Source: a virus | Direction: 5' to 3' (one strand) | Virus record (IMG/VR): IMGVR_UViG_3300025133_008824 | Span: 1-20,519 of that record | DNA length: 20,519 nucleotides | Part shown: piece after piece, positions 3,412-18,501 of the stretch | Layout of the letters: each line of letters opens with the position of its first letter | How positions within the stretch are numbered: the stretch's first letter is position 1 | The notes under the pieces: generated by a model | The model's database searches: none | Seen by the model: only the letters and a program-made list of their open reading frames with translations | Told to the model about the DNA's origin: nothing | Program-made: the position numbers and the translations under genes

Positions 3412-4672
3412 GAATCACCTTCACCACTGGAAACCTTAAGCTAAAGGTTCCTTCCTGGTTTTGGCTCTCTTCAAAGTACTGCACGGTAATAACTTTGTTC
3501 AAGATATCTTCAGGATTCTTAAAGAAATGTTTTCTCTCTTCAATCGTGAATCCAGACCCAACCCCGACGGGATTGCCTTTGTGCTCGATCACAACGTTGG
3601 AAAGCATGATTTCTTCTACTTCCTTGCCGTCGACCACGTAGCGAAACGGACCAGCATCATAACCCATCACTCGATACTCAGCGTCGTGCATCGTCTTGAC
3701 CTTCAGGATGTCCTTCGACCGCTTACCTTTATATGTGGTATCAAGTCGGAGCATTAAACCTTCCCAGCCAGCATCCTGGGCTTCCTGGCGCCACTTCTGG
3801 AAGTCCTCGTGGTCTGTGAGGCGCTGCTGACCGAGCACTGAGGTGTATTTTGCATCTTGCGGAATGGTGTCAGCTAATCTACCTAGCCTCGTGAGAAACC
3901 CGTCCTCGGACACGCGAGCTTGGAAGTCGGGTAGATCAATCATGTCAAAGATCTGGAACAGGCCGTTCTCGACCGTGTGATCCTTCCGCCTGATCTCCTT
4001 CATCATGCGCTGGAAGTCCTCGTTACCGTCTTCATCGACCAGACACATCTCGCCGTCATAGACAACGTTGGTCACACCGAGTGATTCGATCTCCTCTTCC
4101 ACCTTCCGCAAAGTTTGGAACTGCTTGCCGGAACGTGCCCATGAAGTGGCGTGACCGTTCTCATCTACCATAACGAGACATCTAACTCCGTCAAGTTTTC
4201 GGGACACCACCCAGACTTGATTTTCGAAATCAACTTTCTTAGCAGTCTTCTCATCATACGAGTTTGCCAATGCTACGTCGAACGTGGGAATAAGATTGTC
4301 ACACGCTCTGTTAATAAGCTTCTCAGATGCTCGGATCTTCAGGTTGCGGTCGAGGATGAGATTTAAAACGTCTTTCCACTCCGGATTTTCCTTTAGAAAT
4401 GCATTGATCTGCGATAATGATTTGTGCCCCGTGATCTCTCGTGCATTCAAAGCGTCAAGCAGATCAAAGACATCCTGATAATCACACGTGTCATCACAAA
4501 GATCTGACCGTTTTCTCAAGTTCTTCACTCCCACATGATATTGCAGGAATGGATTGTAGGCGTAGTAAAGAGCTTTCCGAGTAAGCTCATCAGTGGATTC
4601 AAGAAGAGCAACCTTATCTAAGACTGACGACGTTGCAGTCATGTTTTCGATAAAACTAGTTAATGTATTCAT
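3389..4672 (-). CDS. ATP-dependent DNA ligase
   Basis: A 427-residue enzyme that seals nicks in duplex DNA. Numbered from the ATG at 4672: motif I is RKLDGVR with the adenylated lysine at K159; motif III is VVYDGEM with E208; motif IV is WEGLMLR at 303-309; motif V is ILKVK with K324/K326. An OB-fold domain follows from about residue 330, with LRFPVVKV near the end as the motif VI region. The N-terminal 150 residues are a helical DNA-binding region of the phage T4 ligase type. I chose the ATG at 4672 because it forms TGATG with the stop of the M23 gene; a TTG at 4693 is possible. It probably serves phage replication or repair. The gene looks more GC-rich by eye than its neighbours. Confidence 0.93.
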   Translation of the reverse strand: MNTLTSFIENMTATSSVLDKVALLESTDELTRKALYYAYNPFLQYHVGVKNLRKRSDLCDDTCDYQDVFDLLDALNAREITGHKSLSQINAFLKENPEWKDVLNLILDRNLKIRASEKLINRACDNLIPTFDVALANSYDEKTAKKVDFENQVWVVSRKLDGVRCLVMVDENGHATSWARSGKQFQTLRKVEEEIESLGVTNVVYDGEMCLVDEDGNEDFQRMMKEIRRKDHTVENGLFQIFDMIDLPDFQARVSEDGFLTRLGRLADTIPQDAKYTSVLGQQRLTDHEDFQKWRQEAQDAGWEGLMLRLDTTYKGKRSKDILKVKTMHDAEYRVMGYDAGPFRYVVDGKEVEEIMLSNVVIEHKGNPVGVGSGFTIEERKHFFKNPEDILNKVITVQYFEESQNQEGTFSLRFPVVKVIHGDERTC

Positions 4673-5202
4673 CAGTGCGAATGCTTCTTCCAAATGTTTT
4701 CACGGTACTTGCAAACAAACTTTCTCGGATCAACGAAGTCATCCGTGTTTCTTCCCTTGTTCCGATAGATCTCCAAATGAAGATGAGGGCCCAAAGATCT
4801 GCCGGTGCTCCCCACTCGGCCAATTACTTGACCTGCTGCAACCCGAGAACCTTTCTTTACAAGAATCTCTGACATGTGAGCGTACTTGAATTTCAAGCCA
4901 TTGGGGGCGCGCATGAGAACTTGCAATCCGCCACCTCGAGCAGATTTACGTGCGAAGTAAACATATCCGTCAGTAACTGCTCTGATCTTTACACCTTCGT
5001 CTGCTTGAATATCAATGCCGTGGTGAAACTTCCGACCCGGTCCGAACGGATTATCGCGGGTGCCGAAATGCGAAGTGATTCGGGCGAGACGGTAATCAAT
5101 CGGGACCTTGCAGTTAATTCCCATTTCAGACTTGACTGTGACAGATTGCATCGAAACAACACTATTTGGTGCAGCTAAAACTAGCAAAGTAGTGAGAACC
5201 AT
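4672..5202 (-). CDS. M23 family metallopeptidase (LytM-like), secreted
   Basis: A 176-residue peptidoglycan endopeptidase. The N-terminal hydrophobic stretch (MVLTTLLVLAAPNSVVS) predicts a signal peptide. Zinc ligands are the HxxxD pair H60 and D64 (FHHGID) and the second His of HLHLE (H142), with YAHM (H109) and H140 completing the active site. The length fits a single M23 domain with little else. C31 and C164 are at equivalent places in the paralogue and could form a disulfide, fitting an exported protein. A short Lys/His tail (KKHSH) ends it. The ribosome site GAGGAGGAACAA is shared almost exactly with the upstream paralogue. The ligase gene starts on its stop codon. Likely used for lysis or virion wall penetration. 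Confidence 0.9.
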   Translation of the reverse strand: MVLTTLLVLAAPNSVVSMQSVTVKSEMGINCKVPIDYRLARITSHFGTRDNPFGPGRKFHHGIDIQADEGVKIRAVTDGYVYFARKSARGGGLQVLMRAPNGLKFKYAHMSEILVKKGSRVAAGQVIGRVGSTGRSLGPHLHLEIYRNKGRNTDDFVDPRKFVCKYRENIWKKHSH

Positions 5203-5220
5203 TTGTTCCTCCTCAATCTT

Positions 5221-5226
5221 ATTATA
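5221..5226 (-). promoter_or_regulatory. Candidate promoter -10 box (TATAAT) for the downstream M23 gene
   Basis: The minus-strand context is GCACTGTTATAATAAGATTG, followed by the ribosome site GAGGAGGAAC and the ATG at 5202, 18 bases from the box. The predicted leader is only about a dozen bases. The upstream paralogue has the same arrangement. Confidence 0.5.
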
Positions 5227-5255
5227 ACAGTGCTTTTCTTGTTTTACACATTTAA

Positions 5256-5786
5256 TTAGTGAGAATGACTGTGCGGATGGGTAAACACTGGGTAGCTGCA
5301 GATGAAGTCCCTCGGATCGAGGTGATCAGATTTAGTCCAACCTTTCTTCTCGTAGATAGCGAAGTGCAAGTGTGAACTGCGAGTACGCCCAGTAGATCCG
5401 ACCATGCCGATCACGGCTCCTGCAGGCACAACAGCGCCGGCTTTGACGAGGAACTTTCTCATGTGCGCATATTTCTCAGTGAGGCCGTTCTTCGTCTTGA
5501 TGATCATCGTGTAACCCCCGATGTCGTCGTGCTTGGCGTAGAAAACGGTGCCGCCGAAAAGGCTTCTAACTAGAGTGCCTTCAGGTGCTGCAATATCAAC
5601 CCCGTAATGAAAGGTTCTTCCTGGGCCGAAAGGATCTTCGCGCATTCCGAACTCTGATAGCATTTTTCCAGAGCCGGCAGCGACTGGAGCCTTGCAAGAC
5701 TCAGTGCCTTCTAAGGTGACGGTATCCATAGTCACCGACGTGTTAGCAGTAGGGGCAGATAGCAGCAAGATAGTAGCGAGAACCAT
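5256..5786 (-). CDS. M23 family metallopeptidase (LytM-like), secreted, paralogue
   Basis: A 176-residue paralogue of the next gene downstream. It has a signal peptide (MVLATILLLSAPTANTS), zinc ligands H60 and D64 (FHYGVD), H108 (YAHM) and H139/H141 (HLHF), and paired Cys at 31 and 163. The core GSTGRTRSSHLHF matches the GSTGRSLGPHLHL of the paralogue, but surface residues differ widely, suggesting an old duplication with different substrates or timing rather than a recent copy. It ends in a His-rich tail (HPHSHSH). The family cleaves peptide cross-links in peptidoglycan. AGGAGGAACAA is the ribosome site and a TATAAT box lies 18 bases upstream of the start. Confidence 0.9.
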   Translation of the reverse strand: MVLATILLLSAPTANTSVTMDTVTLEGTESCKAPVAAGSGKMLSEFGMREDPFGPGRTFHYGVDIAAPEGTLVRSLFGGTVFYAKHDDIGGYTMIIKTKNGLTEKYAHMRKFLVKAGAVVPAGAVIGMVGSTGRTRSSHLHFAIYEKKGWTKSDHLDPRDFICSYPVFTHPHSHSH

Positions 5787-5804
5787 TTGTTCCTCCTTGC
5801 TACT

Positions 5805-5810
5805 ATTATA
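5805..5810 (-). promoter_or_regulatory. Candidate promoter -10 box (TATAAT) for the upstream M23 gene
   Basis: The minus-strand context is AAGCAGTATAATAGTAGC, followed by AAGGAGGAACAA and the ATG at 5786, 18 bases from the box. No good -35 hexamer at 16-18 bases is seen. Confidence 0.5.
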
Positions 5811-5843
5811 CTGCTTGTGTTTTAGATTTGCACAAAAACTCGA

Positions 5844-6989
5844 TTATTTAGAAAGCTCTACTCTATCGACGCCGGCGCCTTTGGCAATGCGATCAAGATC
5901 TGGCTCACCTTCTTCTTCCCATTGACTTCGAGAAATGCTCAGGATTCTGTCTCCCGATCCGTCCCTGGCGTCGTGCTCGATTCCTCCTGCGAATACCTTG
6001 GGATCGATTCCTGGAAGAGTAGGCATGCTAGATGGATCGTCATCATACTTAACAGGGTCGCCCGGCGTGGCAGCTGAAGCTCCTACGCCTCTCTCATCTT
6101 CGCTATCAGCGGAAGCAACCATTGTATCAGAGCCAGAAATGCTCAGTGCAACCATAACAGGCTGGGAGATTTTACGCATCAAGCGATGTGTAAGCTGATC
6201 TTTGTTTGCTACCTTAGAAAGATCTCGAACGTTTGTTGCGAACGCAGGATCAGACTTCATCTTATCGACCATAGCAGATTTTACAGATTTCTCATCTACA
6301 TTCTCACCGCCGGCTTTGATCCTTTTAACTAAATTCTTAAGGACACGATTTAAAGGATTTTCACCGGGGGCAGCAGGCTTTTGTCTTTTAGAAGTTCCGC
6401 CCATGCGTAAAACTTTTCCACCAAGATCGCTGTAGTCCACCCATGATTGGAGCCACTGTTTTGTAGCATTTACCGTACCCAAGCTAGCTGTCGGAGAAGG
6501 ATCTGTGACAGTACCTAGGTTCGCATCCATGCCGGCGGCAATGGCGGATTTGGCGGCGGCCGTGAAAGCTGCGTTTGTTTTGGGCCCCCAAACACCGTCG
6601 GGTTTAAGATTACTCTGCTTCTGGAATCTTTCAAGTGCCTTTTTTGTCTTAGGCCCAAACTTGCCGTCGATGTCGCTGAAGCTATTAGGATCAAGGTATC
6701 CCAGGAGGGCGAGACCCCACTGCATTTTCTTAGTAGGAGACCAAAGAGTTGCGGGGTCGAATACATCACCCATGGAGTCCCCCTTCTTAATGTAGTCAAC
6801 TAAGCCTTCACTCAGTATTTCCTTCGCGAGCTCTGCGATCATCCCGCGGAGATCAGACTCGTTCATCGTAGAAGACTGCGTTTCCTCAACTGTAGCTTCC
6901 TGTACTTGCTCAGTTTCAACAGTTTGTTGTGGTTCAGCGGACTCATTGAGAATCCCAGCTAGTTTGTTCCATCGATCAAATGTAGACAT
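5844..6989 (-). CDS. Peptidoglycan-binding-domain protein, probable virion-associated
   Basis: A 381-residue protein without a signal peptide. The N-terminus (MSTFDRWNKLAGILNE) and the helical segment SDLRGMIAELAKEIL resemble N-termini I associate with structural proteins of large marine myophages; this is recalled, not searched. Residues about 85-145 form a PG_binding_1 domain (LLGY, DGKFGPKTKKALERFQ, PDGVWGPKTNAAF). The remaining 230 residues are Ala/Lys-rich then acidic, with no catalytic motif, so it is probably a wall-anchoring or structural component rather than a hydrolase. The 484-residue protein at 10274 carries a related binding module. AAGGAG lies upstream of the ATG, with a weak TATAGA box about 20 bases away. 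Confidence 0.8.
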   Translation of the reverse strand: MSTFDRWNKLAGILNESAEPQQTVETEQVQEATVEETQSSTMNESDLRGMIAELAKEILSEGLVDYIKKGDSMGDVFDPATLWSPTKKMQWGLALLGYLDPNSFSDIDGKFGPKTKKALERFQKQSNLKPDGVWGPKTNAAFTAAAKSAIAAGMDANLGTVTDPSPTASLGTVNATKQWLQSWVDYSDLGGKVLRMGGTSKRQKPAAPGENPLNRVLKNLVKRIKAGGENVDEKSVKSAMVDKMKSDPAFATNVRDLSKVANKDQLTHRLMRKISQPVMVALSISGSDTMVASADSEDERGVGASAATPGDPVKYDDDPSSMPTLPGIDPKVFAGGIEHDARDGSGDRILSISRSQWEEEGEPDLDRIAKGAGVDRVELSK

Positions 6990-7030: not shown

Positions 7031-9280
7031 TTAATTATCAAGGGTGAATACTTGAACTTCTTGGGTCCAGGCACGGCGATTATATGCCGACGATTCATTA
7101 AGATCCCATTGCCCAAAGTTAAACCCAGGTATTAGAGCGGTAACCATTCTGTAAAAGAATGCTCCTGCTTGTGGTTTTTGAACTGCCGACCCGAGATCAT
7201 CTTCGGGAAAATACGGTAGTTTAAATTTAGTTATATGCCCTGGTACGAAAACGTACCACTGATTTCCTGTAGTTGCTTCAGAGATAACAAAGGAATATAG
7301 AGAGGGCTGCGGGCTGACTGGCATTATTCTCCATTGGAACATTCTATTTCTAAGGTACCCACCGTCCTCTGGTATGTTAATGCCTGGGAACTGCATCATA
7401 TCACCTAACACCACTCCGTCATGAATACTATCTTGACCGGACCTTATGATCGCGCTGTAGGGTTCATTATAAACGTAAGACCCATGACAAGAATACCCTC
7501 TGCTACCTGACAAGCAGGATTGTCCTGGTTGACAGTCTGTGTGCATTCGACATGGTGTTAAATTATCTGCATTAGGATCCCACGCCCTAGTATAAGTTCC
7601 CGCGTAAAAAGTAAGCATTTGGCCTGGCACTGAGGGTAGGCTCTCAACCATCACGTGAGCTCGAGAATCAGTCTTGGTACTCAAGTGATAAACACCTTCG
7701 CCGCCGAAATCCAAGAAAGATACAACCTTAGAGTGCGTAGGGCCGGCACGACCATCAACATAAAATGGTGCGTCTGGCAATGTTATTACTGTTGAGTTTT
7801 CTAGATCATATTCCAGATTAATAATGATATCACTAACAGTCTCACCGTAAACTGCACTGACTCCTCTTCGGATTCCCATTTGACGCACTGACGTCACTTC
7901 CTGTGTTCTTACATTTAGAACACCTGTGAACGCAACAAGTGCATACCTTCCAGGGACAGTAATAAAATCAAATGTAGAATTGTCTTCAAAAATGGTGTCG
8001 TTGCCATAGACCACAATGCAGTTTCCGCTTGAGAACCAAGTACAGGGTCGGCCGCCTTGCGGAACTGGTTGTTCCCACACAGTGGCCTTTGGCGTCTTTC
8101 GACTAAATATATTGCGCTGTGTAAGATCAATGAAACCAAAGGCTCTCTCATTTGGACCCAATGTGTAAGGGTCAAAGAGTGCTTTTGAGAATCCAGTTAC
8201 AATACCTCGGATTCTTGGAAAGACAACAGGTGGCTGTTCTGGTGGCGCGCCTGAAGACGGTGGTGATGGAAAACTGCATGACAGGTAAACTGTGAGATCC
8301 TCAGACGGCATCTCAATATAAGTCTCAGTGCTGCAATGCTGTGCTGCGACTGTGACTGCCTGGGCCCCGTAAACATTTGGCCCACTCAGAGTTGCCAAAC
8401 CGCTTTGATCTGTTGTCTTCACATGTTCTGGATGATCGTCTGTTCCTAGCCAGACTAAAGAATTAGGAAGCGGAACTCGCTCCCCTTGAATTATAGTTAA
8501 AACTTTAACATTTACTGCCCCGTCAATTTGTCCGCCGTGAACGCCGCCTGTGATGAATGCTGGATCGTAGTACTCAAACCCTCCATCTATTACAAACGAC
8601 GGAGACCCGACAGGATTGACAGTGACGTCCACAAAACCTCGAGAACCTTGCGGAGTATACACATTTAAAGTATTTTCGTCAGGTGCTGATTCGATAACTG
8701 CATCCATAAATCCAAATTTAACAACAGAGCTCTCATCTCCGATTCCTTCTCTGACGATGGTGACGTAAGTTCCGCCAGCGATGGAACCCCTAGAAGGGTG
8801 CACCTGTGGGCCGGTGCCGTCGATATAAGAAAACTCTGACGTAGTTACAGTGCCGAGACTATTTTGAACTCTAATCTCAACTGGTCCTGCTTGACCGGGC
8901 GGAAGGCGGAATGTAATAATTCTATTGTTAGTAACAAAGATATCAGACGCGGGTGCTCCTGCAACAGTTACTGATGAATCTGGTGCAAATCCGCTTCCTC
9001 TTAGACGCACACGAATTCCACCCAGTATCGGTCCGGTCGGAGGTGTGACTGATTCTATTACTACAGCTGACCCTGCATCATAGGCAGGAGGTCGAATAGC
9101 GGGCCCCGTATCCCTGGCTGGCGGGGCAGTAGTTCTTCCCGCATCATGAGCAAGATTTATTACTGGGCCAGAATCTGGCAGATAGGACTCTTCCTGGTCT
9201 ATACAACCAACCGTAGTCAATAATACAAGACTAAAAGTCTTTAAAAAAAGCTTCTTCGAACTCGATGGCTTTGTTCTCAT
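7031..9280 (-). CDS. Large IPT/TIG-domain lipoprotein
   Basis: A 749-residue lipoprotein. The signal peptide ends in a lipobox (LLTTVGC, lipidated C26). An Ala/Pro/Asp-rich linker (residues 30-72) follows, then two IPT/TIG immunoglobulin-like domains at about 74-152 (IESVTPPTGPILGG) and 156-238 (VHPSRGSIAGGTYV). A carboxypeptidase-regulatory-like beta domain spans about 255-330 (NSLVWLGTDD ... TTDQSGLATLSG). The rest is strand-rich, with a Cys cluster (CRMHTDCQPGQSC) of a type common in myxobacterial surface proteins. I prefer the ATG at 9280, with AAGG six bases upstream, over a TTG at 9283. It should sit on the outer membrane. No enzymatic motif is seen; binding or adhesion is likely. It may be host-derived cargo. 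Confidence 0.85.
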   Translation of the reverse strand: MRTKPSSSKKLFLKTFSLVLLTTVGCIDQEESYLPDSGPVINLAHDAGRTTAPPARDTGPAIRPPAYDAGSAVVIESVTPPTGPILGGIRVRLRGSGFAPDSSVTVAGAPASDIFVTNNRIITFRLPPGQAGPVEIRVQNSLGTVTTSEFSYIDGTGPQVHPSRGSIAGGTYVTIVREGIGDESSVVKFGFMDAVIESAPDENTLNVYTPQGSRGFVDVTVNPVGSPSFVIDGGFEYYDPAFITGGVHGGQIDGAVNVKVLTIIQGERVPLPNSLVWLGTDDHPEHVKTTDQSGLATLSGPNVYGAQAVTVAAQHCSTETYIEMPSEDLTVYLSCSFPSPPSSGAPPEQPPVVFPRIRGIVTGFSKALFDPYTLGPNERAFGFIDLTQRNIFSRKTPKATVWEQPVPQGGRPCTWFSSGNCIVVYGNDTIFEDNSTFDFITVPGRYALVAFTGVLNVRTQEVTSVRQMGIRRGVSAVYGETVSDIIINLEYDLENSTVITLPDAPFYVDGRAGPTHSKVVSFLDFGGEGVYHLSTKTDSRAHVMVESLPSVPGQMLTFYAGTYTRAWDPNADNLTPCRMHTDCQPGQSCLSGSRGYSCHGSYVYNEPYSAIIRSGQDSIHDGVVLGDMMQFPGINIPEDGGYLRNRMFQWRIMPVSPQPSLYSFVISEATTGNQWYVFVPGHITKFKLPYFPEDDLGSAVQKPQAGAFFYRMVTALIPGFNFGQWDLNESSAYNRRAWTQEVQVFTLDN

Positions 9281-9407
9281 CAAGAACCTTCCTAACCATG
9301 GGTTTAATAATCTGCGGTAAAAGAACGCGCAGTTGTGATTCTACTTCCATTCGAATCATGTGTTCAACCTCGTCTTTAAAAATCTTACTAACCCTAGGAG
9401 TATACAT
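9231..9407 (-). CDS. Small helical protein (possible)
   Basis: A 58-residue frame starting MYTPRVSKIFKDEVEHMIRM. Most of it is predicted amphipathic helix (VRKVLDENKAIEFEEAFF), with mixed charge, so the frame looks like real protein. It overlaps the lipoprotein start by 50 bases, more than most neighbours, and no Shine-Dalgarno sequence is seen, so expression is uncertain. A TTG at 9416 is an alternative start. Function unknown. Confidence 0.4.
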   Translation of the reverse strand: MYTPRVSKIFKDEVEHMIRMEVESQLRVLLPQIIKPMVRKVLDENKAIEFEEAFFKDF

Positions 9408-9474
9408 GAGAAACAAACATAAACGTCAAAACAACAGTGATGACATATAGAATAATATCATTTTTTAAGAACAT
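9394..9474 (-). CDS. Possible 26-residue membrane peptide
   Basis: A tiny frame starting MFLKNDIILYVITVVLTFMF, nearly all of it one membrane-spanning helix. It overlaps the start of the next small gene (ATG inside its last codons), consistent with coupling. There is no good ribosome site and the local DNA is AT-rich, which can produce such frames by chance. Confidence 0.25.
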   Translation of the reverse strand: MFLKNDIILYVITVVLTFMFVSHVYS

Positions 9475-9510
9475 GATTTAATCTACAGAGAGTGAAATAA
9501 AAAATAAAAA

Positions 9511-9816
9511 TTATCGCTTATTTGTTTTTTTGCCTGCAGGGTGGCTCAGCTTGACTTGCTTAGAATGTGCCAAATATAAAATAACAGCATTGCCGACGAA
9601 ATAAGATGTAACAACTGCACCTAAAACAGCATCACCAACGACAAGAAGTGTGTAAAGAACTGATGCAAAGGCACTCATCGTGAAGACACAGTAAGCAGGA
9701 ACTGAGATTGCGTCAGCTGTCTCTGATGCGGCTACAGCCTTAACTTGATGTATAAAAAGCAGGATCGCCAATGCCTGTGAGAAGATGTAAAAACACGTAA
9801 GCAGAGTGTCGATCAA
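9511..9816 (-). CDS. SemiSWEET/PQ-loop-like three-helix membrane protein
   Basis: A 101-residue protein with three hydrophobic segments at about 3-23, 40-60 and 66-84. The stretch FIHQVKAV, then ETADAISVPAYCVF, then SVLYTLLVVGDAVLGAVV follows the SemiSWEET/PQ-loop pattern (normally PQ, then Ser/Thr-Ala-Asp-Gly-Ile-Ser, then Tyr-Gly and an Asp/Asn). The usual PQ is replaced by HQ. SemiSWEETs are small transporters, often of sugars, that work as dimers. A Lys-rich tail ends the protein. The TTG start at 9816 overlaps the upstream stop (TTGA). Transport substrate and activity cannot be told from sequence. Confidence 0.65.
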   Translation of the reverse strand: MIDTLLTCFYIFSQALAILLFIHQVKAVAASETADAISVPAYCVFTMSAFASVLYTLLVVGDAVLGAVVTSYFVGNAVILYLAHSKQVKLSHPAGKKTNKR

Positions 9817-10277
9817 TTAACTAACCCCGCCCGGACCTTGAATTCTATGCCAGGAACTTTGGTCGTGAGATATCCCACAGATTTTTCTACGTCACCTTTT
9901 ACGATATGGGGCGCTTCAACTGGAATGCCGTCACCGGTGATAGCTCGACCGTAGATCACGAGATCGCCCTTGTCAACCATATACCTGTCAACGTGGAAAT
10001 CAACTCGATCAGTCTTATAACCCGGTTCGAACAATTCGTCGTAAATCGCTTGGCCGTTCCAGTTAGAAACGATCAAAATCTTCACGGGTATCTCAGGATA
10101 CCTTGCCACAGATCCCACGCGGACTTGTGGGATATTTGTGTTAGCATTCTTATAATCTACCCCAAGCTTGAACATTCGACCGAATCCGCCCAGCGTATGT
10201 GCAAAGCGACGGGATCCGTAAACAGAAAGCGTCTCACGGATCAGTTTTCGAAGTTTTTTCTCTTGGTCAGTGTTCAT
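9813..10277 (-). CDS. Hypothetical protein, possibly virion-associated
   Basis: A 154-residue protein that I do not recognise. It opens with a short charged helix (MNTDQEKKLRKLIRETLSVY); an RxLIRE-type helix is a feature I associate with structural and virion proteins of large myophages, a weak clue. The rest is probably beta-rich (VKILIVSNWNGQAIYDELF, DKGDLVIYGRAI). It has no signal peptide or catalytic motif. It overlaps the multidomain wall hydrolase upstream by ATGA and the SemiSWEET-like gene downstream by TTGA, so all three are translationally linked. The GDLV inside it appears coincidental because it is mid-protein. Confidence 0.65.
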   Translation of the reverse strand: MNTDQEKKLRKLIRETLSVYGSRRFAHTLGGFGRMFKLGVDYKNANTNIPQVRVGSVARYPEIPVKILIVSNWNGQAIYDELFEPGYKTDRVDFHVDRYMVDKGDLVIYGRAITGDGIPVEAPHIVKGDVEKSVGYLTTKVPGIEFKVRAGLVN

Positions 10278-11728
10278 ACTGTTGCTGTGTTAGAATAAGC
10301 GCTATTATAAGCATTGATGTTTTTTGTAACGTGGGCAATATAATCTGGATTTTTTTCACCGTAATATTTTCCTACCCAGCCCGCTGTGTTACCAGATTTC
10401 ATTAATTTAGCTGCGGTAGGATTCATAGAAACCCATCGTTTAAACGCTGTTTTAGAGTGTTCTGCAGGGTTTGAATTCCAAGATTGTAGAAACTTATCTG
10501 CATCACCGTTGTAGTCTATTAAAGAGAAAGCTCCGAGGACTTGATAGAGGCCCCACGCTCCGCCGACGATTGCTGCAACAGGGTCAACTTTATAAGCTTG
10601 ATTGAATTTTGCTTTGGCGGCGCCGCCGAGATAAGATTTTCCTGACGGTAACTTTTGTTTTGCGGTTTTCGTAAGCTTATGCCCAGCCATCGCGCTCCAC
10701 TGCGGGTCTCGAGAGATGTGTGCATTCCAGGCGAAGGCTTTGGGGTTGCCGGCTGACTCCCTTTTCTCAATTGCATAGATCACTGCAGCTGGAATACCTG
10801 TTTCCTTTGAAAGTTCTTGCGCTCGGGCGGCAGCTGTTTGACTTACATCTTCACCAGCAACCAGATCACCAGCTGCAGTATCGATATCCTTGACTTTAAT
10901 AAGTGCTTTTTCAATATTCTTTGGAATGTCGGCGGTTACGGTTGCTTTTAACTCTGCATCCTTCGCCAGGAACTTATCCCACGTTTCCTTTGTCGTTGTT
11001 CCAGTGACGGTCAAGCTATTATCTTTTTGAAACTTCTTAATAGCATCCTCAGTCTTTTGATCGAACTTACCATCAACATCGACTTTATACCCGAGCGATT
11101 TCAGCCCTTGCTCAAGAACTTTGATAACGCTTAAATAGATCGCTGTTTGTCCAGCAGGGGTTTTAGCATACACATCTCTTTTTGATTTTATCTCAGCTTT
11201 TGCGCCGGCTGTGAGTGCTTCTTGGACTGATTGTTGTATTGTTGACTTTATTTCTGCCAGAGTGGGCATGCCCTCAAGATCTTCAAGGCGATAGTGCACG
11301 TCTTCCAAGATCAGATTCTGGAATTGCTTTCTAATTTCGTATACATCGTCTTCTTCTCTGTCCAGGGCAAATCCTTTGATCAAAGATCCTGCCCGGGCAT
11401 TAGCATCATCTTCCAAGTATCCTCCAACATGCTGCATAGGGTGCTCGTCAAACTCCCCTTTGACATCTTGTTTAGCGTGAACTAATTCGTGTGCGATTGA
11501 TCTCAGCACATCAGGGACGGCTCGATCTTTGGCGTAAATCTTGATAATCTTATTGTTTGGATCGTAATAAGCCGTGGTCTGGATTCCGTGGGATTCTCGA
11601 TCATCAACAATGTAGATATCGTAGTCATCCCCGATCTCCAGGGACTTACAGCAGTGATCAACAAAGATCTGAATTAGATCTTGTTTCGGTTCTATGCGCG
11701 GCAGTTCGCCCTCGAGATACAAGCCCAT
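10274..11728 (-). CDS. Three-module wall hydrolase: HExxH metallopeptidase, PG-binding domain, muramidase-like domain
   Basis: A 484-residue protein without a signal peptide. Residues 1-145 hold a zinc metallopeptidase-like domain: AHELVH (80-84) with YLEDDANARAG about 20 residues later supplying a candidate third-ligand Glu (E106). Residues about 195-255 are a PG_binding_1 module (LKSLGY, DGKFDQKTEDAIKKFQ). Residues about 295-480 look like a phage N-acetylmuramidase (DUF3380-like, lysozyme-fold) domain: IEKRESAGNP with candidate catalytic E324, GGAWGLYQVLGAF, and a C-terminal AYNSAY. Wall binding and glycan cleavage are likely. The peptidase could process protein or wall peptide, or be only structural. 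AGGAG lies nine bases before the ATG, with a TATAAT box 22 bases upstream. It fits a virion-associated lysin or endolysin. Confidence 0.82.
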   Translation of the reverse strand: MGLYLEGELPRIEPKQDLIQIFVDHCCKSLEIGDDYDIYIVDDRESHGIQTTAYYDPNNKIIKIYAKDRAVPDVLRSIAHELVHAKQDVKGEFDEHPMQHVGGYLEDDANARAGSLIKGFALDREEDDVYEIRKQFQNLILEDVHYRLEDLEGMPTLAEIKSTIQQSVQEALTAGAKAEIKSKRDVYAKTPAGQTAIYLSVIKVLEQGLKSLGYKVDVDGKFDQKTEDAIKKFQKDNSLTVTGTTTKETWDKFLAKDAELKATVTADIPKNIEKALIKVKDIDTAAGDLVAGEDVSQTAAARAQELSKETGIPAAVIYAIEKRESAGNPKAFAWNAHISRDPQWSAMAGHKLTKTAKQKLPSGKSYLGGAAKAKFNQAYKVDPVAAIVGGAWGLYQVLGAFSLIDYNGDADKFLQSWNSNPAEHSKTAFKRWVSMNPTAAKLMKSGNTAGWVGKYYGEKNPDYIAHVTKNINAYNSAYSNTATV

Positions 11729-13878: not shown

Positions 13879-14148
13879 TTACTTGTCTTGAACAAGAACG
13901 ATCTCATCTTCATAAACCCAGACTGAGTTTCCACTTAACAAGATCTTGTAGTCGAAAGTTCTATCACCTGACACGGGTGTTACATGAGATCGGCATGACA
14001 AATACGTTCTTCTACCGATGATGACGCCCACTCCGCTTGATTTTTCTAAACCAAATATTTCCAAGACATTGTGCTGGAGTGACTTCTTCAGTCTAACTAA
14101 ATCCCCGATCTTAAACTTAGGGGGTGCGGTCGACGATCCATTCATCAT
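13879..14148 (-). CDS. GDLV-motif SH3-like protein
   Basis: An 89-residue protein: PKFKIGDLVRLKKSLQ, then SGVGVIIGRRTY, then RTFDYKILLSGNSVWVYEDE. It is the longest member of the group, with larger loops. It starts at an ATG-ATG pair at 14148/14145 and overlaps the end of the transglycosylase gene by 32 bases; GGAAG lies just upstream. The terminal VWVYEDEIVLVQDK matches the final strand seen in the others. Function unknown. Confidence 0.7.
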   Translation of the reverse strand: MMNGSSTAPPKFKIGDLVRLKKSLQHNVLEIFGLEKSSGVGVIIGRRTYLSCRSHVTPVSGDRTFDYKILLSGNSVWVYEDEIVLVQDK

Positions 14149-14734
14149 ATCGCTTCCGGATGAGGCGCGTGATTCTGATTGATGATCGCTGGTATCTTTC
14201 TATTACTTTTCTTGCTTTTGAGTGTCGCCATTTTGGTCCCCCGTTATAACAAGCAAAAATATTATCACCTTGACATGCTTTAAATCTATAGAAATCACGC
14301 AATATAAATACGGCGTGACGAGCACTAGTTCGGGGGTTCATGTTACTTTTTACAAAATCTTTTTTAGAATTGTAACCCAACTTCTTATACCACCATCTTG
14401 CATTGATCTGGAACAATCCATAATCCCCAGTATGAGAAACAATGTTTGAATAGAATGATGACTCTTTAAATGCGATAGTAAGCAATAAAACTTTATCGAA
14501 GTTTTCTTCTTTGGCAGTCTCTAATATAATACTAACGTTTGTTAGCTGCTCAGAATTTAAGTGCCCTAACACAGACGCTGCGTGGAAATATGTTATTTCT
14601 AGTTCATCGTCGGGAACAGCAGCGAGATGGATTGTAGGAGTATCATCTTCATACTTTTCATATACAGGAGTCGGCTCATTACACCCATTGCATGACGCAA
14701 GGAGAATTAATGCGGGAAGATATTTTTTTAACAT
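14117..14734 (-). CDS. SLT-type lytic transglycosylase lipoprotein
   Basis: A 205-residue lipoprotein starting MLKKYLPALILLASCNGC; the lipobox LLASC puts the lipidated residue at C15. The catalytic domain spans about 70-180: IAFKESSF with catalytic E91, HTGDYGLFQIN (101-111), and ACYNGG (161-166), the three landmarks of the lysozyme-like SLT fold. It should cleave peptidoglycan glycan strands while held on a membrane. The start is supported by GAGGT before the ATG; an upstream extension to 14767 would bury the signal peptide. A TATAAT box is 19 bases upstream. It may thin the wall for lysis or DNA entry, or be part of the flanking envelope island. Confidence 0.88.
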   Translation of the reverse strand: MLKKYLPALILLASCNGCNEPTPVYEKYEDDTPTIHLAAVPDDELEITYFHAASVLGHLNSEQLTNVSIILETAKEENFDKVLLLTIAFKESSFYSNIVSHTGDYGLFQINARWWYKKLGYNSKKDFVKSNMNPRTSARHAVFILRDFYRFKACQGDNIFACYNGGPKWRHSKARKVIERYQRSSIRITRLIRKRYDEWIVDRTP

Positions 14735-14753
14735 AGTCAACCTCAAGTTTTTT

Positions 14754-14759
14754 ATTATA
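14754..14759 (-). promoter_or_regulatory. Candidate promoter -10 box (TATAAT) for the transglycosylase lipoprotein gene
   Basis: The minus-strand context is GCAGAGTATAATAAAAAAC, 19 bases before the ATG at 14734. The flanking GCAG...TATAATA resembles that of the upstream M23 gene. Confidence 0.5.
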
Positions 14760-14788
14760 CTCTGCATTTTTCTAATCTTAAGAAGATA

Positions 14789-15589
14789 TTATCGTCTATA
14801 GAAAACAAAGCACTTGTTAAACATGCAGAATTTATAAACGTCTCTATCTTCTTCTATTACAGAATCAACAATCGCTCGAATAGAATCGTGCGGAGAAGCA
14901 ATAGATAAGTTTTCTAGCTTGTCGACGCCGGCGTAGATAACTCCGACGATCTGCATAGAAGAGTTTAAGATAGGTGAGCCTGAAGATCCTGGGCGTGTTG
15001 GAATAGAAAACACTGCTTCGTGAACACCTGGCCTTCCAGAGTAAAACCCTTCAAAGATCATAACTGTTTTTCTTCCAAAATATCCGTACGGGGCAGCCAT
15101 ATTATAAACTCTTTCCCCTCTAGCTGGTGGGTCTTCAGCAATATCCAGGTATTTTAGATTTGCATCCGGGTGGAGAAGAACCTTCAAGACGCATAAATCG
15201 TTTTTAGAATCAATTCGAATAACTTCTGTTGACATTTTATTGAGATCCTCATCAACGACTGTGATCGCTGACGTCAATATTGTTATTTTCATTTCATCCT
15301 TGAGATTTTTTGGGATCTTTGGATTTGCGCAAGAATGGCCTGCAGTTAGAAAAAATCCGTAATCAGAATTACTTCTACTTCTAGCAAAGAAAGCCCCCGA
15401 AGACGTGGAGACAGACGTCTTAATTGTGCACTGGTCGCCGTGACATATTTTCAAAAGCATTGAGTGTCGAATCATTCCAAATGCTTCAGTCGCCATATAG
15501 ACTCTATTCGGTGACACATAACAGCTGCTTAATGGGAGCAGACAAAATAAAGTTACAGCAGGAAGTATATTTTTTATGATTTTTTCCAT
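14789..15589 (-). CDS. Trypsin-like serine protease lipoprotein
   Basis: A 266-residue protein starting MEKIIKNILPAVTLFCLLPL with lipobox PLSSC (lipidated C23). The S1-type triad is H85 (FLTAGHSC), D131 (NDLCVLKV) and S203 (RPGSSGSPIL). The distances fit a single trypsin-like domain, without a PDZ domain. Extra Cys pairs (C49/C54, C256/C260) suggest disulfides. The frame is open further upstream to 15889, but that stretch overlaps the divergent genes and lacks a signal, so the ATG at 15589 is preferred even though its ribosome site is weak. It should be lipid-anchored outside the cytoplasm. It diverges from the plus-strand genes across a 70-base gap. Substrate unknown. Confidence 0.85.
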   Translation of the reverse strand: MEKIIKNILPAVTLFCLLPLSSCYVSPNRVYMATEAFGMIRHSMLLKICHGDQCTIKTSVSTSSGAFFARSRSNSDYGFFLTAGHSCANPKIPKNLKDEMKITILTSAITVVDEDLNKMSTEVIRIDSKNDLCVLKVLLHPDANLKYLDIAEDPPARGERVYNMAAPYGYFGRKTVMIFEGFYSGRPGVHEAVFSIPTRPGSSGSPILNSSMQIVGVIYAGVDKLENLSIASPHDSIRAIVDSVIEEDRDVYKFCMFNKCFVFYRR

Positions 15590-15659
15590 ATTAGTAAATA
15601 TGTAGGAACGCGCATACACATATAAAAATATTGCGCTAAGTAGTCTCGGAGCATTTCCC

Positions 15660-15938
15660 ATGAAATTTTTAAAGAACTCTGTCGTTGGCTTAGTTGCCAT
15701 CTTCATCGCGCTAGCTTTTTTAAACAAAGGCGGCATCAAACAAAAAGAACAAGCTTGGACAAAAAATGGCAATGAATGGTCATATGTCGGAACCAAGTCA
15801 GATGAAAAAAAGCAAATACACATTATAGAAACTTCTACTATTAACGACAAAGAAATATTTAATACTGTGATAAAGATGCCTTTTGTCACACTAGAGGGCG
15901 CAGATCAATCTCATGGTAAAAATTGGAGAAAAAACTAG
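15660..15938 (+). CDS. Small membrane-anchored or secreted protein
   Basis: A 92-residue protein starting MKFLKNSVVGLVAIFIALAF, a signal anchor or uncleaved signal peptide; no lipobox is seen. The rest is polar, with likely beta strands (QIHIIETSTINDKEIFNTVI). It is the first of three plus-strand genes and overlaps the second by 26 bases. GGAG lies eight bases before the ATG. TATAAA in the 70-base divergent gap (near 15620) could be its promoter. The base composition is AT-rich by eye. Function unknown. Confidence 0.65.
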   Translation: MKFLKNSVVGLVAIFIALAFLNKGGIKQKEQAWTKNGNEWSYVGTKSDEKKQIHIIETSTINDKEIFNTVIKMPFVTLEGADQSHGKNWRKN

Positions 15939-16371
15939 ACTTGGTATTCTGCTCAGCCTTTTAGCTGTAGCAGGATTAACATACTACGAAATTTCTCATA
16001 GGCCCGCCCTAGTATTTAAAAAAGACACTTCATATTTTATGTCCGGGAAGAATCGGGACTGCAACTGGCAAGTGTTTTTTGAGAAAGATGTTTATCTAAA
16101 AAGAGGCTCTTTCTCAAATGTATTCATTGGATTACCTGAAAAACAAAAACTCGGGGCGATCAAAGGAATCGTAGAGTCAACTGACTCTGATCTTCTTTTA
16201 GCTTTTTCATTTCCCGGAAAGTTTAGCAGTCCTCCCATAGTGCTGACGTCTAGACATCAATCAATCAAAATTCCCTATGAATCAGTTAGGTTCAAGCTGC
16301 TCAATAGCAGCATTTTAACTATCTTAATCTACAAAGACCAAGAAACTTGTATGAAGATGAGGGGCCGTTGA
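15913..16371 (+). CDS. Single-pass membrane protein of unknown function
   Basis: A 152-residue protein. Residues about 9-26 (RLGILLSLLAVAGLTYYEI) form a single N-terminal membrane segment, so about 125 residues should face outwards. That part is strand-rich (NWQVFFEKDVYLKRGSF, SIKIPYESVRFKLL) with two Cys (one in RDC, one near the end). It starts inside the preceding gene, and its stop TGA shares a base with the ATG of the VWA lipoprotein gene (TGATG), so the three are translationally coupled and probably work together. Not recognised. Confidence 0.68.
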   Translation: MVKIGEKTRLGILLSLLAVAGLTYYEISHRPALVFKKDTSYFMSGKNRDCNWQVFFEKDVYLKRGSFSNVFIGLPEKQKLGAIKGIVESTDSDLLLAFSFPGKFSSPPIVLTSRHQSIKIPYESVRFKLLNSSILTILIYKDQETCMKMRGR

Positions 16372-17618
16372 TGAAAAAAGTTCTAATCATGCTTTCACTC
16401 TTATCAGTCATCAGCTGCTCAGACGATCCAGAGCTGGTCGCGCTTGAGTGCTCGCCTGGCAGCGTGAGAAATTGTGATGAGAGCGGTGCAGTTGTAGCAG
16501 ATAACCTATCAAGCTTGGTAAGAAACGGTATATGTTCCTACGGTAAGCAGCACTGCTCCTTTGACGGCTGGGGTGAGTGCATCGGAGCTCAAGGTCCTGA
16601 AGCTGAGGTTTGTGATGGTTTAGATAATGACTGCAATGGGCAAATTGATGATGAGTACCCCGAAAAAAATGAGCTATGTGGATTCGTCGGGGGCGTGAAT
16701 TATAGTGAGGGAATATGCCAGCCAGGCGTCTACCAGTGTGAAGACGGGGCTATTAAATGCGAAGGACACATCGGACCTGAACTTGAGGTTTGTGATGGGA
16801 TTGATAATAATTGCAGCGGAGAAATTGACGAACATATTGTCAACCAGACAGCTGTAGTTTGTTATGACGGGCCACCGGGGACGATGAGGGTTGGAATTTG
16901 CAGAGCTGGGATCTCATACTGCACAGACGCAGTCATGACCCACTGCGAGGGACAAATCCTCCCAGAAGAAGAAAGATGTGACGGGATTGATAATAACTGT
17001 GACGGTGTTATCGACGAAGGATTTGAAGAAAGGCGTGCGGAAATAATTTTTGTTGTTGATGCATCAGGTTCATTTAGTGATGAAATCAACTCAATGATTG
17101 GCGGGATTCGGCCGCTTCTCTCAGATCCTATTACGGAAAGATTTAAGTTTGGCCTAGTAGTCATTGGAATGAGAGAACCGGAGAGAGATCCTGAGAGCAA
17201 CTACAAGCACTTGATTAAAGCGTCTGATTTAGTCCCACGTGATGAGTTTCTGACTTACCTTGAAGAAATACTAACAACTCACATGAGCAATTCTGGTGGA
17301 CAGGAACCATCATACGATGCGATTGTCGGGATTTCCAACGGAGATATCTCTTTTGACTTCTCTGAAAATGCACAAAAGATCATTGTTCTTATGACTGACG
17401 AGCCTGGCCAAACTTATGCAACACCTGGGAATAACGAAATGCTGGCGGCGCAAGCTGTTAGGGACGGATCTTTTGGAATCTATATCTTTTCTTTAGCAGA
17501 GCACTTTTACTCATTTGATGATATAGTAAGAGATCATAGTCACTTACACTCTGCTACGTCAGACCCTAATACTGTGTTTAGTCAGCTTCAAACTATGTTT
17601 GATGATATCTGCAGATAA
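16371..17618 (+). CDS. MopE-repeat and von Willebrand A domain lipoprotein
   Basis: A 415-residue lipoprotein starting MKKVLIMLSLLSVISC (lipidated C16). Three 60-residue Cys-rich repeats follow, each ending in CDGxDNxCxGxID (81, 141, 203), the putative metal-binding MopE motif common in myxobacterial surface proteins. Residues about 224-415 form a VWA domain: the metal-ion-dependent adhesion site has DASGS (D230, S232, S234), GGQEPSYDAI and LMTDEPG. Such proteins bind partner proteins through a divalent metal. The ATG at 16371 is preceded by GAGGGG; a start at 16347 would hide the signal peptide. Its stop is one base from the stop of the convergent protease gene. The architecture is host-like for a phage gene and suggests acquired cargo. 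Confidence 0.88.
   Translation: MKKVLIMLSLLSVISCSDDPELVALECSPGSVRNCDESGAVVADNLSSLVRNGICSYGKQHCSFDGWGECIGAQGPEAEVCDGLDNDCNGQIDDEYPEKNELCGFVGGVNYSEGICQPGVYQCEDGAIKCEGHIGPELEVCDGIDNNCSGEIDEHIVNQTAVVCYDGPPGTMRVGICRAGISYCTDAVMTHCEGQILPEEERCDGIDNNCDGVIDEGFEERRAEIIFVVDASGSFSDEINSMIGGIRPLLSDPITERFKFGLVVIGMREPERDPESNYKHLIKASDLVPRDEFLTYLEEILTTHMSNSGGQEPSYDAIVGISNGDISFDFSENAQKIIVLMTDEPGQTYATPGNNEMLAAQAVRDGSFGIYIFSLAEHFYSFDDIVRDHSHLHSATSDPNTVFSQLQTMFDDICR
16605..17024 (+). repeat. Three intragenic MopE-type repeats
   Basis: The protein-level repeat EVCDGLDNDCNGQID recurs as EVCDGIDNNCSGEID and ERCDGIDNNCDGVID at 60-62 residue spacing. Each is preceded by a GIC...G...C......C.G...PE pattern. At DNA level only short stretches such as GATTGATAATAA are shared. 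Confidence 0.8.
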
Positions 17619-17619
17619 A

Positions 17620-18393
17620 CTACTTATCAGTTGGGCACCATTCAGGCTTAATCCAGTTTTGTTCTGCACACAGATGATTCTCAAGTTTTTCAAAATCCAT
17701 CATTGAGCTCGGTGTTGCAAAAACAATAGACTCAAGAAGCTGCGGGACATATCCCCTTCCCACAGGAAGTGCGACTAATACCCCGACAAAATATCCTTGC
17801 TTGTCAAAAAATCCTGAACCTGAGGCGCCTGGCCATCCGTACGTATGTATGGTGATCTTAGTTCTGTCATTAGATATCTTCTCTATGCCGGCGACATCAC
17901 CTCTCAGAGTAAGAAGATCATGATGACCAGGGTACCCTGAATACGTTAGCGTTTCACCGATCTCTGGGAGCGAACGATTTACTTTTAAGGGTACAGCCAA
18001 AATAGATTCTAGCTTCTTTACTGCAAGGACACAGATGTCCTCTTCGCGATCAAAATAAACAATCCATCCTTTTTGTCTTTCTCTTTCAGGTGTTACAACC
18101 CAAACATATGACTGGGTTGATGCATCTACAACATGGGCGGCAGTAATTACCAAGTGGCGATTTTTATATGTAACGTATGTTCCACTTCCTCGGCCGCTAT
18201 TTGGAGTAAAGACTTTAACTGTTGCATATCTAGATCGAAGCTCATATGGGTTTAGAGTTTCAACTGGGGTTGCGTTGCCCCAAAAAAACTCTGTTAGGGC
18301 TTTTTTGTCATCTTTACACACGGGCACAGGCTGATCGGAGCTGCAGCTTACAGCCAAGATGAATATAGAACACAAAGATAAAATATTTTTCAT
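17620..18393 (-). CDS. Trypsin-like serine protease lipoprotein, second copy
   Basis: A 257-residue lipoprotein starting MKNILSLCSIFILAVSC (lipidated C17). The triad is H87 (VITAAHVVD), D119 (REEDICVLAV) and S191 (GWPGASGSGFF), a full S1 chymotrypsin-fold domain without extra modules. It shares architecture with the protease at 14789 (lipobox, single domain, similar length) but little sequence outside the motifs, so they are distant relatives or separate acquisitions. The gene converges on the VWA gene with one base between stops and no terminator hairpin. GAAAGAG lies before the ATG. It should act outside the cytoplasm; the substrate is unknown, and the neighbouring VWA lipoprotein is a candidate partner. 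Confidence 0.87.
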   Translation of the reverse strand: MKNILSLCSIFILAVSCSSDQPVPVCKDDKKALTEFFWGNATPVETLNPYELRSRYATVKVFTPNSGRGSGTYVTYKNRHLVITAAHVVDASTQSYVWVVTPERERQKGWIVYFDREEDICVLAVKKLESILAVPLKVNRSLPEIGETLTYSGYPGHHDLLTLRGDVAGIEKISNDRTKITIHTYGWPGASGSGFFDKQGYFVGVLVALPVGRGYVPQLLESIVFATPSSMMDFEKLENHLCAEQNWIKPEWCPTDK

Positions 18394-18413: not shown

Positions 18414-18501
18414 TGGAGGAGAGTGAGGGATTCGAACCCTCGGTAGATTGCTCTACAGCCGCGTTCCAGGCGACCACCTTCGACCGCTCGGTCAACTCTC
18501 C
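18414..18501 (-). tRNA. tRNA-Ser (anticodon GGA)
   Basis: Eighty-eight bases including an encoded CCA end. The acceptor stem GGAGAGT pairs with ACTCTCC. The anticodon arm is GTCGC-CTGGAAC-GCGGC, giving anticodon GGA (reads UCC and UCU). The long variable arm GTAGA-GCAA-TCTAC is diagnostic of a class II tRNA, here serine. The T arm is GAGGG-TTCGAAT-CCCTC. All stems pair, so the gene looks functional. It sits alone between the protease lipoprotein gene and a hypothetical gene. Single tRNAs are common in large phages; tRNA genes are also frequent integration sites, but no attachment repeat was seen. Confidence 0.96.

Follow-up and report, generated by a model that had tools for sequence, protein, structure and literature searches.

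Complement C2 and factor B of animals combine a metal-dependent VWA recognition part and a trypsin-fold protease in one polypeptide. Among phages, the proteins described at the host envelope include Llp of T5, a lipoprotein that is made early and blocks FhuA (PMC9586334), and the spanins Rz/Rz1 of lambda. Here we analysed a locus in which a trypsin-fold protease lipoprotein and a VWA lipoprotein are encoded side by side in a stretch of viral DNA of 20,519 bases (IMG/VR record IMGVR_UViG_3300025133_008824, a linear record without wider genome; hereafter the window). An initial annotation, made from the sequence alone, had proposed an undescribed envelope-protein island of six genes, namely a lytic transglycosylase (SLT), two proteases (PROT1 and PROT2), a VWA protein with MopE repeats (VWA), and two small membrane proteins (TM92 and TM152). 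The comparison of viral contigs showed that T4-like phages keep four of these genes, PROT1, TM92, TM152 and VWA, together as a single evolutionary unit whose divergent layout is constant, PROT1 facing away from a TM92-TM152-VWA operon.

A four-gene unit with a fixed divergent layout in T4-like phages

Loci were collected by a viral-contig scan seeded with VWA (43 loci) and by an independent scan seeded with PROT1 alone (72 loci); the TM152 alignment was too divergent for pattern search as a viral-contig query. When the PROT1-seeded loci were scored for completeness with hidden Markov models of the four families, the complete cassette was found at 63 of the 72, and of the other nine, one (L122) ends at a contig edge and the remaining eight, at 24-37% identity, are remote homologs that lack the cassette. 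The divergent order PROT1/TM92-TM152-VWA was present in all 48 distinct cassettes (IMG/VR contigs, duplicates removed), which the flanking genes sorted into four neighbourhood groups of 26, 11, 9 and 2 loci (the first, third and last hereafter g26, g9 and g2); within the 11-locus group, protein divergence separated the window clade (gwin) from g67. The same order was kept in loci L012-L018, even though their remaining genes have no detectable likeness to those of the window. Because the four-gene order persists across four or more neighbourhoods that are unrelated to one another, the cassette has moved or been retained as a unit, and the 48 distinct conserved cassettes show an arrangement far beyond chance. 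The proposed association of the first protease with the VWA operon was therefore supported by their linkage across these cassettes and PROT1 loci.

The two remaining genes of the island are linked to the cassette only locally. All six genes are retained in contigs close to the window, and the close relatives of PROT2 (12 loci) all fall within the window clade. In the 235 kb contig G005, a PROT2 homolog of 51% identity is separated from the cassette by ~20 kb, and the distance between cassette and SLT homologs is 36-76 kb in G005 (156 vs. 232 kb), G008 (74 vs. 110 kb) and G017 (91 vs. 45 kb). A six-gene unit was thus ruled out; in the window clade the cassette has come to lie next to two envelope genes that are separate from it. 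Independent occurrence of the genes in relatives, which the initial annotation had named as the outcome that would speak against its island, was found for SLT and PROT2 but not for the four core genes.

Within the window, the gene calls agreed with the six genes and positions first described (Table 1), and several details of that description could be verified. Overlaps of 26 nt (TM92/TM152) and 1 nt (TM152/VWA) are present in the three coupled plus-strand genes; lipoboxes were seen in all four presumed lipoproteins; the plus-strand genes are confined between the two proteases, the largest other plus-strand open reading frame (ORF) of the window being ≤133 aa; and the stops of VWA and PROT2 (17618 and 17620) are one base apart. 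The PROT1 ORF is open to 15889, and its lipoprotein start is the ATG at 15589. A 366-aa reading of PROT1 was rejected, as the extension is only the antisense of TM92, and the lipoprotein start gives ~266 aa.

Table 1. Features of the cassette and of its immediate neighbours in the window
Feature	Coordinates	Strand	Evidence and remarks
SLT, lytic-transglycosylase lipoprotein	14117-14767	-	PF01464 1.7e-11; lipobox LASC; neighbour, non-core
PROT1, trypsin/HtrA-type protease lipoprotein	14789-15589	-	Trypsin_2 5e-13; lipobox LSSC; cassette core
Divergent intergenic region, 70 bp	15590-15659		promoter-like motifs in both directions in relatives
TM92, small protein with N-terminal hydrophobic helix/signal	15660-15938	+	37-member alignment
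TM152, predicted inner-membrane-anchored periplasmic beta-barrel	15913-16371	+	AF2 model; 40-member alignment
VWA lipoprotein, three MopE CDGxDNxC repeats and VWA domain (MIDAS DxSxS)	16371-17618	+	PF11617, PF00092; lipobox VISC
PROT2, second trypsin-fold lipoprotein	17620-18393	-	Trypsin_2 5e-18; lipobox AVSC; neighbour, non-core

The T4-type gp23 capsid protein and terminase were found in every tested cassette contig >150 kb. Many genes have counterparts in both the window clade and G005 (e.g. g121, 87%; g98, 66%), and the clade is therefore probably of the same broad kind. At the protein level, the cassette was present in 0 of 50,697 deposited phage records, which gave two weak protease-only matches, and megablast against deposited phage records returned no cassette match. 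The suggestion that the gene neighbourhood might be found in Myxococcota chromosomes was not borne out, since the best 80 genome matches (Myxococcota and other Deltaproteobacteria) carry MopE repeats with no PROT1, TM92 or TM152 beside them. A TM152 profile, which as a positive control detected its family in all five cassette contigs tried, found none in 9 plus 379 further bacterial genomes, a limited genome coverage in which two phylum draws, apparently nearly identical in content, were counted once. A myxococcal host is not shown by these searches. Neither TM92 nor TM152 matched Pfam or PHROGs, and literature searches for MopE with phage, or for a protease with an exclusion lipoprotein, returned nothing relevant from a partial library. 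On these grounds the idea of an undescribed envelope-protein system is upheld: the system matches none of the known kinds against which it could be compared and is new as an assembly, and its enzyme-like domains are each known folds. It is a conserved multi-gene system of large phages that includes two protein families without a database match.

Conserved protein features and exchange of the VWA subunit

Both proteases scored above the curated Trypsin_2 cut-off of 27.6 bits, with 50.5 bits for PROT1 and 66.7 bits for PROT2. The PROT1 triad (H85, D131 and S203) and four Cys are invariant in 45 of 45 aligned cassettes, the best solved relatives are the staphylococcal Spl (SplA) and HtrA proteases (about 1e-7), and no PDZ domain was found in PROT1. 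The triad motifs of PROT2 (TAAH, ED[ILV] and GASGSG) are present in the complete window-clade PROT2 sequences; the PROT2 of L010 reads as three frame segments over a stretch that includes N, and these breaks are probably sequencing error and were not counted as decay. The triads are thus intact in all relatives examined, whereas substituted triads in close relatives had been named as a second outcome that would speak against the island.

The VWA protein (415 aa) matched the MopE family PF11617 in three stretches (1.6e-16; 60.6 bits vs. a cut-off of 27). Its match to PF00092 was sub-threshold (0.006; 17.2 bits vs. the curated cut-off of 23.8) and matches to integrin beta-8 were weak (0.0035); the residues of the metal-ion-dependent adhesion site (MIDAS), D230, S232, S234 and D343, are invariant in 45/45 aligned cassettes. 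The two small proteins carry N-terminal helices. TM92 looks secreted or membrane-anchored, and its periplasmic tail keeps W...W.Y, Q and K(M/L)PF in the 37-member alignment; its AF2 model is poor (pLDDT 56). The AF2 model of TM152, of good confidence (pLDDT 86), consists of a membrane helix (residues 6-27) followed by about nine strands, and C50 and C146 are invariant in the 45 aligned cassettes. Calycin-like folds headed the structural list for TM152 without reaching significance (lowest Foldseek E-value 0.04; VIA Z-scores of at most 7.2), and the Foldseek viral library gave nothing significant, so that a lipocalin-like/calycin barrel is a lead provided by the model.

The four families have not diverged in the same way. 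Pairwise distances of PROT1, TM92 and TM152 correlate strongly with each other (r = 0.95-0.96), whereas their correlation with the VWA distances is weaker (r 0.54-0.59). Between g26, g9 and g2, PROT1 is 36-40% identical and VWA 64-68%, a between-group VWA identity about equal to the level within g26, and this is true of the MopE part and of the VWA part. Supportively, each context forms one group in the PROT1 and TM152 trees (g26 weakly supported in TM152), whereas the well-supported branches of the VWA tree require no fewer than four changes for g9 and six for g26. Both the VWA distances and the conflict of its tree with those of PROT1 and TM152 indicate an exchange of VWA between lineages during the joint divergence of PROT1, TM92 and TM152. 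The simplest reading of these patterns would be a co-adapted trio with a host-facing subunit, and the tree conflict leads to the prediction that the target is set by VWA and not by the protease.

Orientation, promoter motifs and candidate purposes

The two carrier contigs counted are nearly one-stranded, and in both the operon is the principal set of genes on the opposite strand. Counting ORFs of ≥100 aa, G008 (190 kb) has 56,381 codons on one strand vs. 1,866 on the other, with VWA and TM152 as its two largest minor-strand ORFs, and G001 (90 kb) has 26,205 vs. 1,575 codons. An operon that runs against such a genome therefore needs its own promoter. Two motif classes were found in G008. The first, AAAACTTGAC followed by a TATAAT-like box, lies ahead of, for example, HNH endonuclease and ATPase genes; the second, ACTATTTA, lies ahead of the genes for tail sheath and tail tube and of the one that precedes gp23 (scaffold region), and recurs at the corresponding structural genes of G006, G017 and G019. 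The AAAACTTGAC-TATAAT class with AAGGGAGAGAG is probably early and the ACTATTTA class probably late. On the operon strand of the intergenic region, ACTA[AT]TTA was present in 23 of 25 g26 cassettes, compared with a shuffled mean of 0.33, the sequences being related and not independent, and the g9 and g2 groups carry ACTAGTTA[CT] at the matching intergenic position. The VWA operon is thus probably expressed late in g26, the lineage that is sampled best. In the window clade the operon strand showed no late-type motif (0/6), and a late promoter was therefore not assigned to the operon there. A Shine-Dalgarno-like CGGAGC precedes TM92, and none precedes PROT1; in the window clade ATATTTA stands ahead of PROT1, about 12 nt from its start, and because this box lies so near the start the PROT1 transcript is possibly leaderless. 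In all contexts, an element TATTTACT/TAGTTACT is located a few bases before the PROT1 ATG.

The cassette thus has its own orientation and promoter and occurs as the same four-gene unit in differing genome contexts. Such autonomy, with an operon on the opposite strand under its own promoters and several insertion contexts, would suit a moron-like host-fitness cassette that, in the course of long infections, alters how the host adheres, preys or takes up nutrients, and the surface proteomes of bacteria commonly include MopE-VWA proteins. However, the carriers are T4-like, and T4-like phages are not known to be lysogenic; furthermore, the promoter motif is of the late type and the cassette was not found in the bacterial genomes examined, which together make this purpose unlikely. 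The late motif is also common to structural genes, and the g26 flanks hold fibre-like proteins (LamG PF13385, 1.4e-15, in L013; a weak tail-fibre PHROG in G008), as might be expected if PROT1 and its partners processed or folded structural or fibre proteins in virion assembly or maturation. This role is highly improbable, because an export signal or lipobox is present on each of the four proteins, whereas the cytoplasm is where T4-like virions are assembled, and the neighbours vary in other contexts.

The lipoboxes of PROT1 and VWA and the N-terminal helices of TM92 and TM152 predict that the cassette products act in the host periplasm and outer membrane, where we infer that they form an envelope protease complex. 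The late appearance in g26 favours release or progeny protection over classical early exclusion. As a release (lysis) module, late envelope proteins would replace the spanins, an inner-membrane-anchored protein and outer-membrane lipoproteins would contact each other through the periplasm, and PROT1 would cut outer-membrane tethers or a surface layer and so free the virions. Besides the late-type motif, this fits the combination of an inner-membrane-anchored protein and an outer-membrane lipoprotein from overlapping genes, which resembles i-/o-spanins (PMC6139136), and the spanin family PF03245 was not found in 12 large carriers, with a positive E. coli control. The cassette also gives two of only about three lipoprotein candidates in G008, and a lytic transglycosylase lipoprotein adjoins it in the window clade. 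However, a coiled-coil i-spanin is missing, since TM152 is modelled as a folded barrel and neither TM152 nor TM92 matched the i-spanin family PF03245, and VWA has 415 aa; SLT is unlinked in distant carriers; the operon lies on the opposite strand, with no endolysin adjacent in the other contexts examined; and spanins need neither a protease nor a VWA domain. Every large carrier has further lipoprotein candidates; that the cassette provides the only lipoproteins of the phage was suggested by a stricter scan and was discarded after a looser one. Release is less likely than not, yet the late timing and the inner-/outer-membrane layout make it a close rival.

Receptor removal or masking late in infection is the purpose that we put forward tentatively, and receptor removal/exclusion is slightly favoured over release. 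The preference rests on the adhesin-like build of a stalk plus VWA, the host-facing exchange, the fibre-like neighbours in g26, and the precedent of T5 Llp. PROT1 would be an outer-membrane-tethered protease that cuts a host envelope protein, with TM152, an inner-membrane-anchored barrel, and TM92 as the regulators or partners that co-diverge with it and control it. VWA, borne on a MopE stalk that binds calcium, would recognise a host envelope protein via the MIDAS and either deliver it to PROT1 or mask it. In the late phase, the receptor used by the phage itself, or some other protein of the surface, would thereby be removed or blocked, so that new virions would be spared loss on the infected cell or debris and latecomers would be excluded; that VWA is the exchanged part would be explained by its exposure to the host. 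A broader picture, in which T4-like phages carry a late envelope protease machine of a kind new to phages, with a fixed periplasm-spanning core (PROT1-TM92-TM152) and a calcium-dependent VWA that picks the host surface protein to be cut or masked and is swapped among phages like tail fibres, is, taken whole, rather unlikely.

Several points weigh against receptor removal or masking. The operon looks late in g26, whereas classical exclusion lipoproteins are made early (PMC9586334), and the promoter count that suggests lateness comes from the related g26 sequences; the window clade lacks a readable timing motif on the operon strand. The fibre-gene neighbours are confined to g26 and do not recur in other contexts, and the VWA exchange is compatible with any host-facing role. 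Furthermore, TM92 lacks a confident model, the fold matches of TM152 are weak, and localisation was read only from lipobox and hydrophobicity patterns. The cassette may turn out to achieve a familiar outcome by a new route. If receptor removal, or outer-membrane opening, proceeds by targeted proteolysis, a mechanism would be added beside blocking lipoproteins and spanins, and the handling of release and re-adsorption by phages of complex-envelope hosts becomes testable.

Neighbouring genes and comparison with known systems

The surroundings of the cassette provided further observations. In L010, a biopterin-dependent aromatic amino acid hydroxylase (9228-10049; PF00351, 3.3e-70) is inserted between VWA and PROT2. 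In the g9 context, L014 encodes an RseP-like intramembrane protease of the M50 family close to PROT1 and, next to VWA, a homolog of Cpn10 (5019-5819 and 9248-9523); M50 proteases occur in 11 loci. In g26 the cassette is flanked by a conserved protein whose start resembles MGGVAGHMDHLYDN (L013 1170-4502; G008 114035-116059, with a cytidylyltransferase-like part in G008); its family occurs in 27 loci, and G001 of the window clade has a protein with a similar start away from the cassette (57402-58598). In L026 (7593-10534), from a different phage, a 740-aa MopE/VWA protein is followed 12 bases on by a same-strand trypsin-fold lipoprotein, which is a second, separate pairing of the two kinds. Short proteins of G008 (85341-85778) and G017 (79658-80092) and the PROT2 homolog of G005 (212237-213103) have a common N-terminus resembling ITMLGI..LILMFA[ST]GC, perhaps a shared envelope anchor. 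In the window itself, a minus-strand tRNA-Ser (gga) lies immediately upstream of PROT2 (18414-18501); cell-wall enzymes crowd 4672-5786, 5844-6989 and 10274-11728, with two tandem M23-type peptidases and two endolysin-like matches; and a 750-aa protein without a confident family (7031-9283) has a G001 homolog (67% identical) that begins with a lipobox.

Compared with described proteins, PROT1 and PROT2 share with HtrA/Deg and Spl a trypsin-fold protease domain with an intact triad, but they are lipoproteins without a detected PDZ domain, and PROT1 is tied to TM92-TM152-VWA. Bacterial MopE/VWA surface lipoproteins have CDGxDNxC repeats and, in some cases, a following VWA domain, as in the cassette protein, but their matches are mostly to the repeats and the best 80 stand apart from the other cassette families. 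Complement C2 and factor B offer a functional analogy, without a claim of homology, as recognition part and protease are encoded by separate genes in the cassette. With lambda Rz/Rz1 the cassette shares an inner-membrane-anchored periplasmic protein plus an outer-membrane lipoprotein, overlapping genes and late expression, the last probable in g26; unlike them, it has no coiled coil and no small proline-rich o-spanin, but it includes a VWA protein and a protease of the serine type. T5 Llp resembles the cassette as a lytic-phage lipoprotein at the host outer membrane, which makes a shared purpose plausible; Llp, however, is a single small early lipoprotein that jams FhuA (PMC9586334), whereas the cassette comprises four genes, with a protease, a VWA/MopE protein and a late motif.

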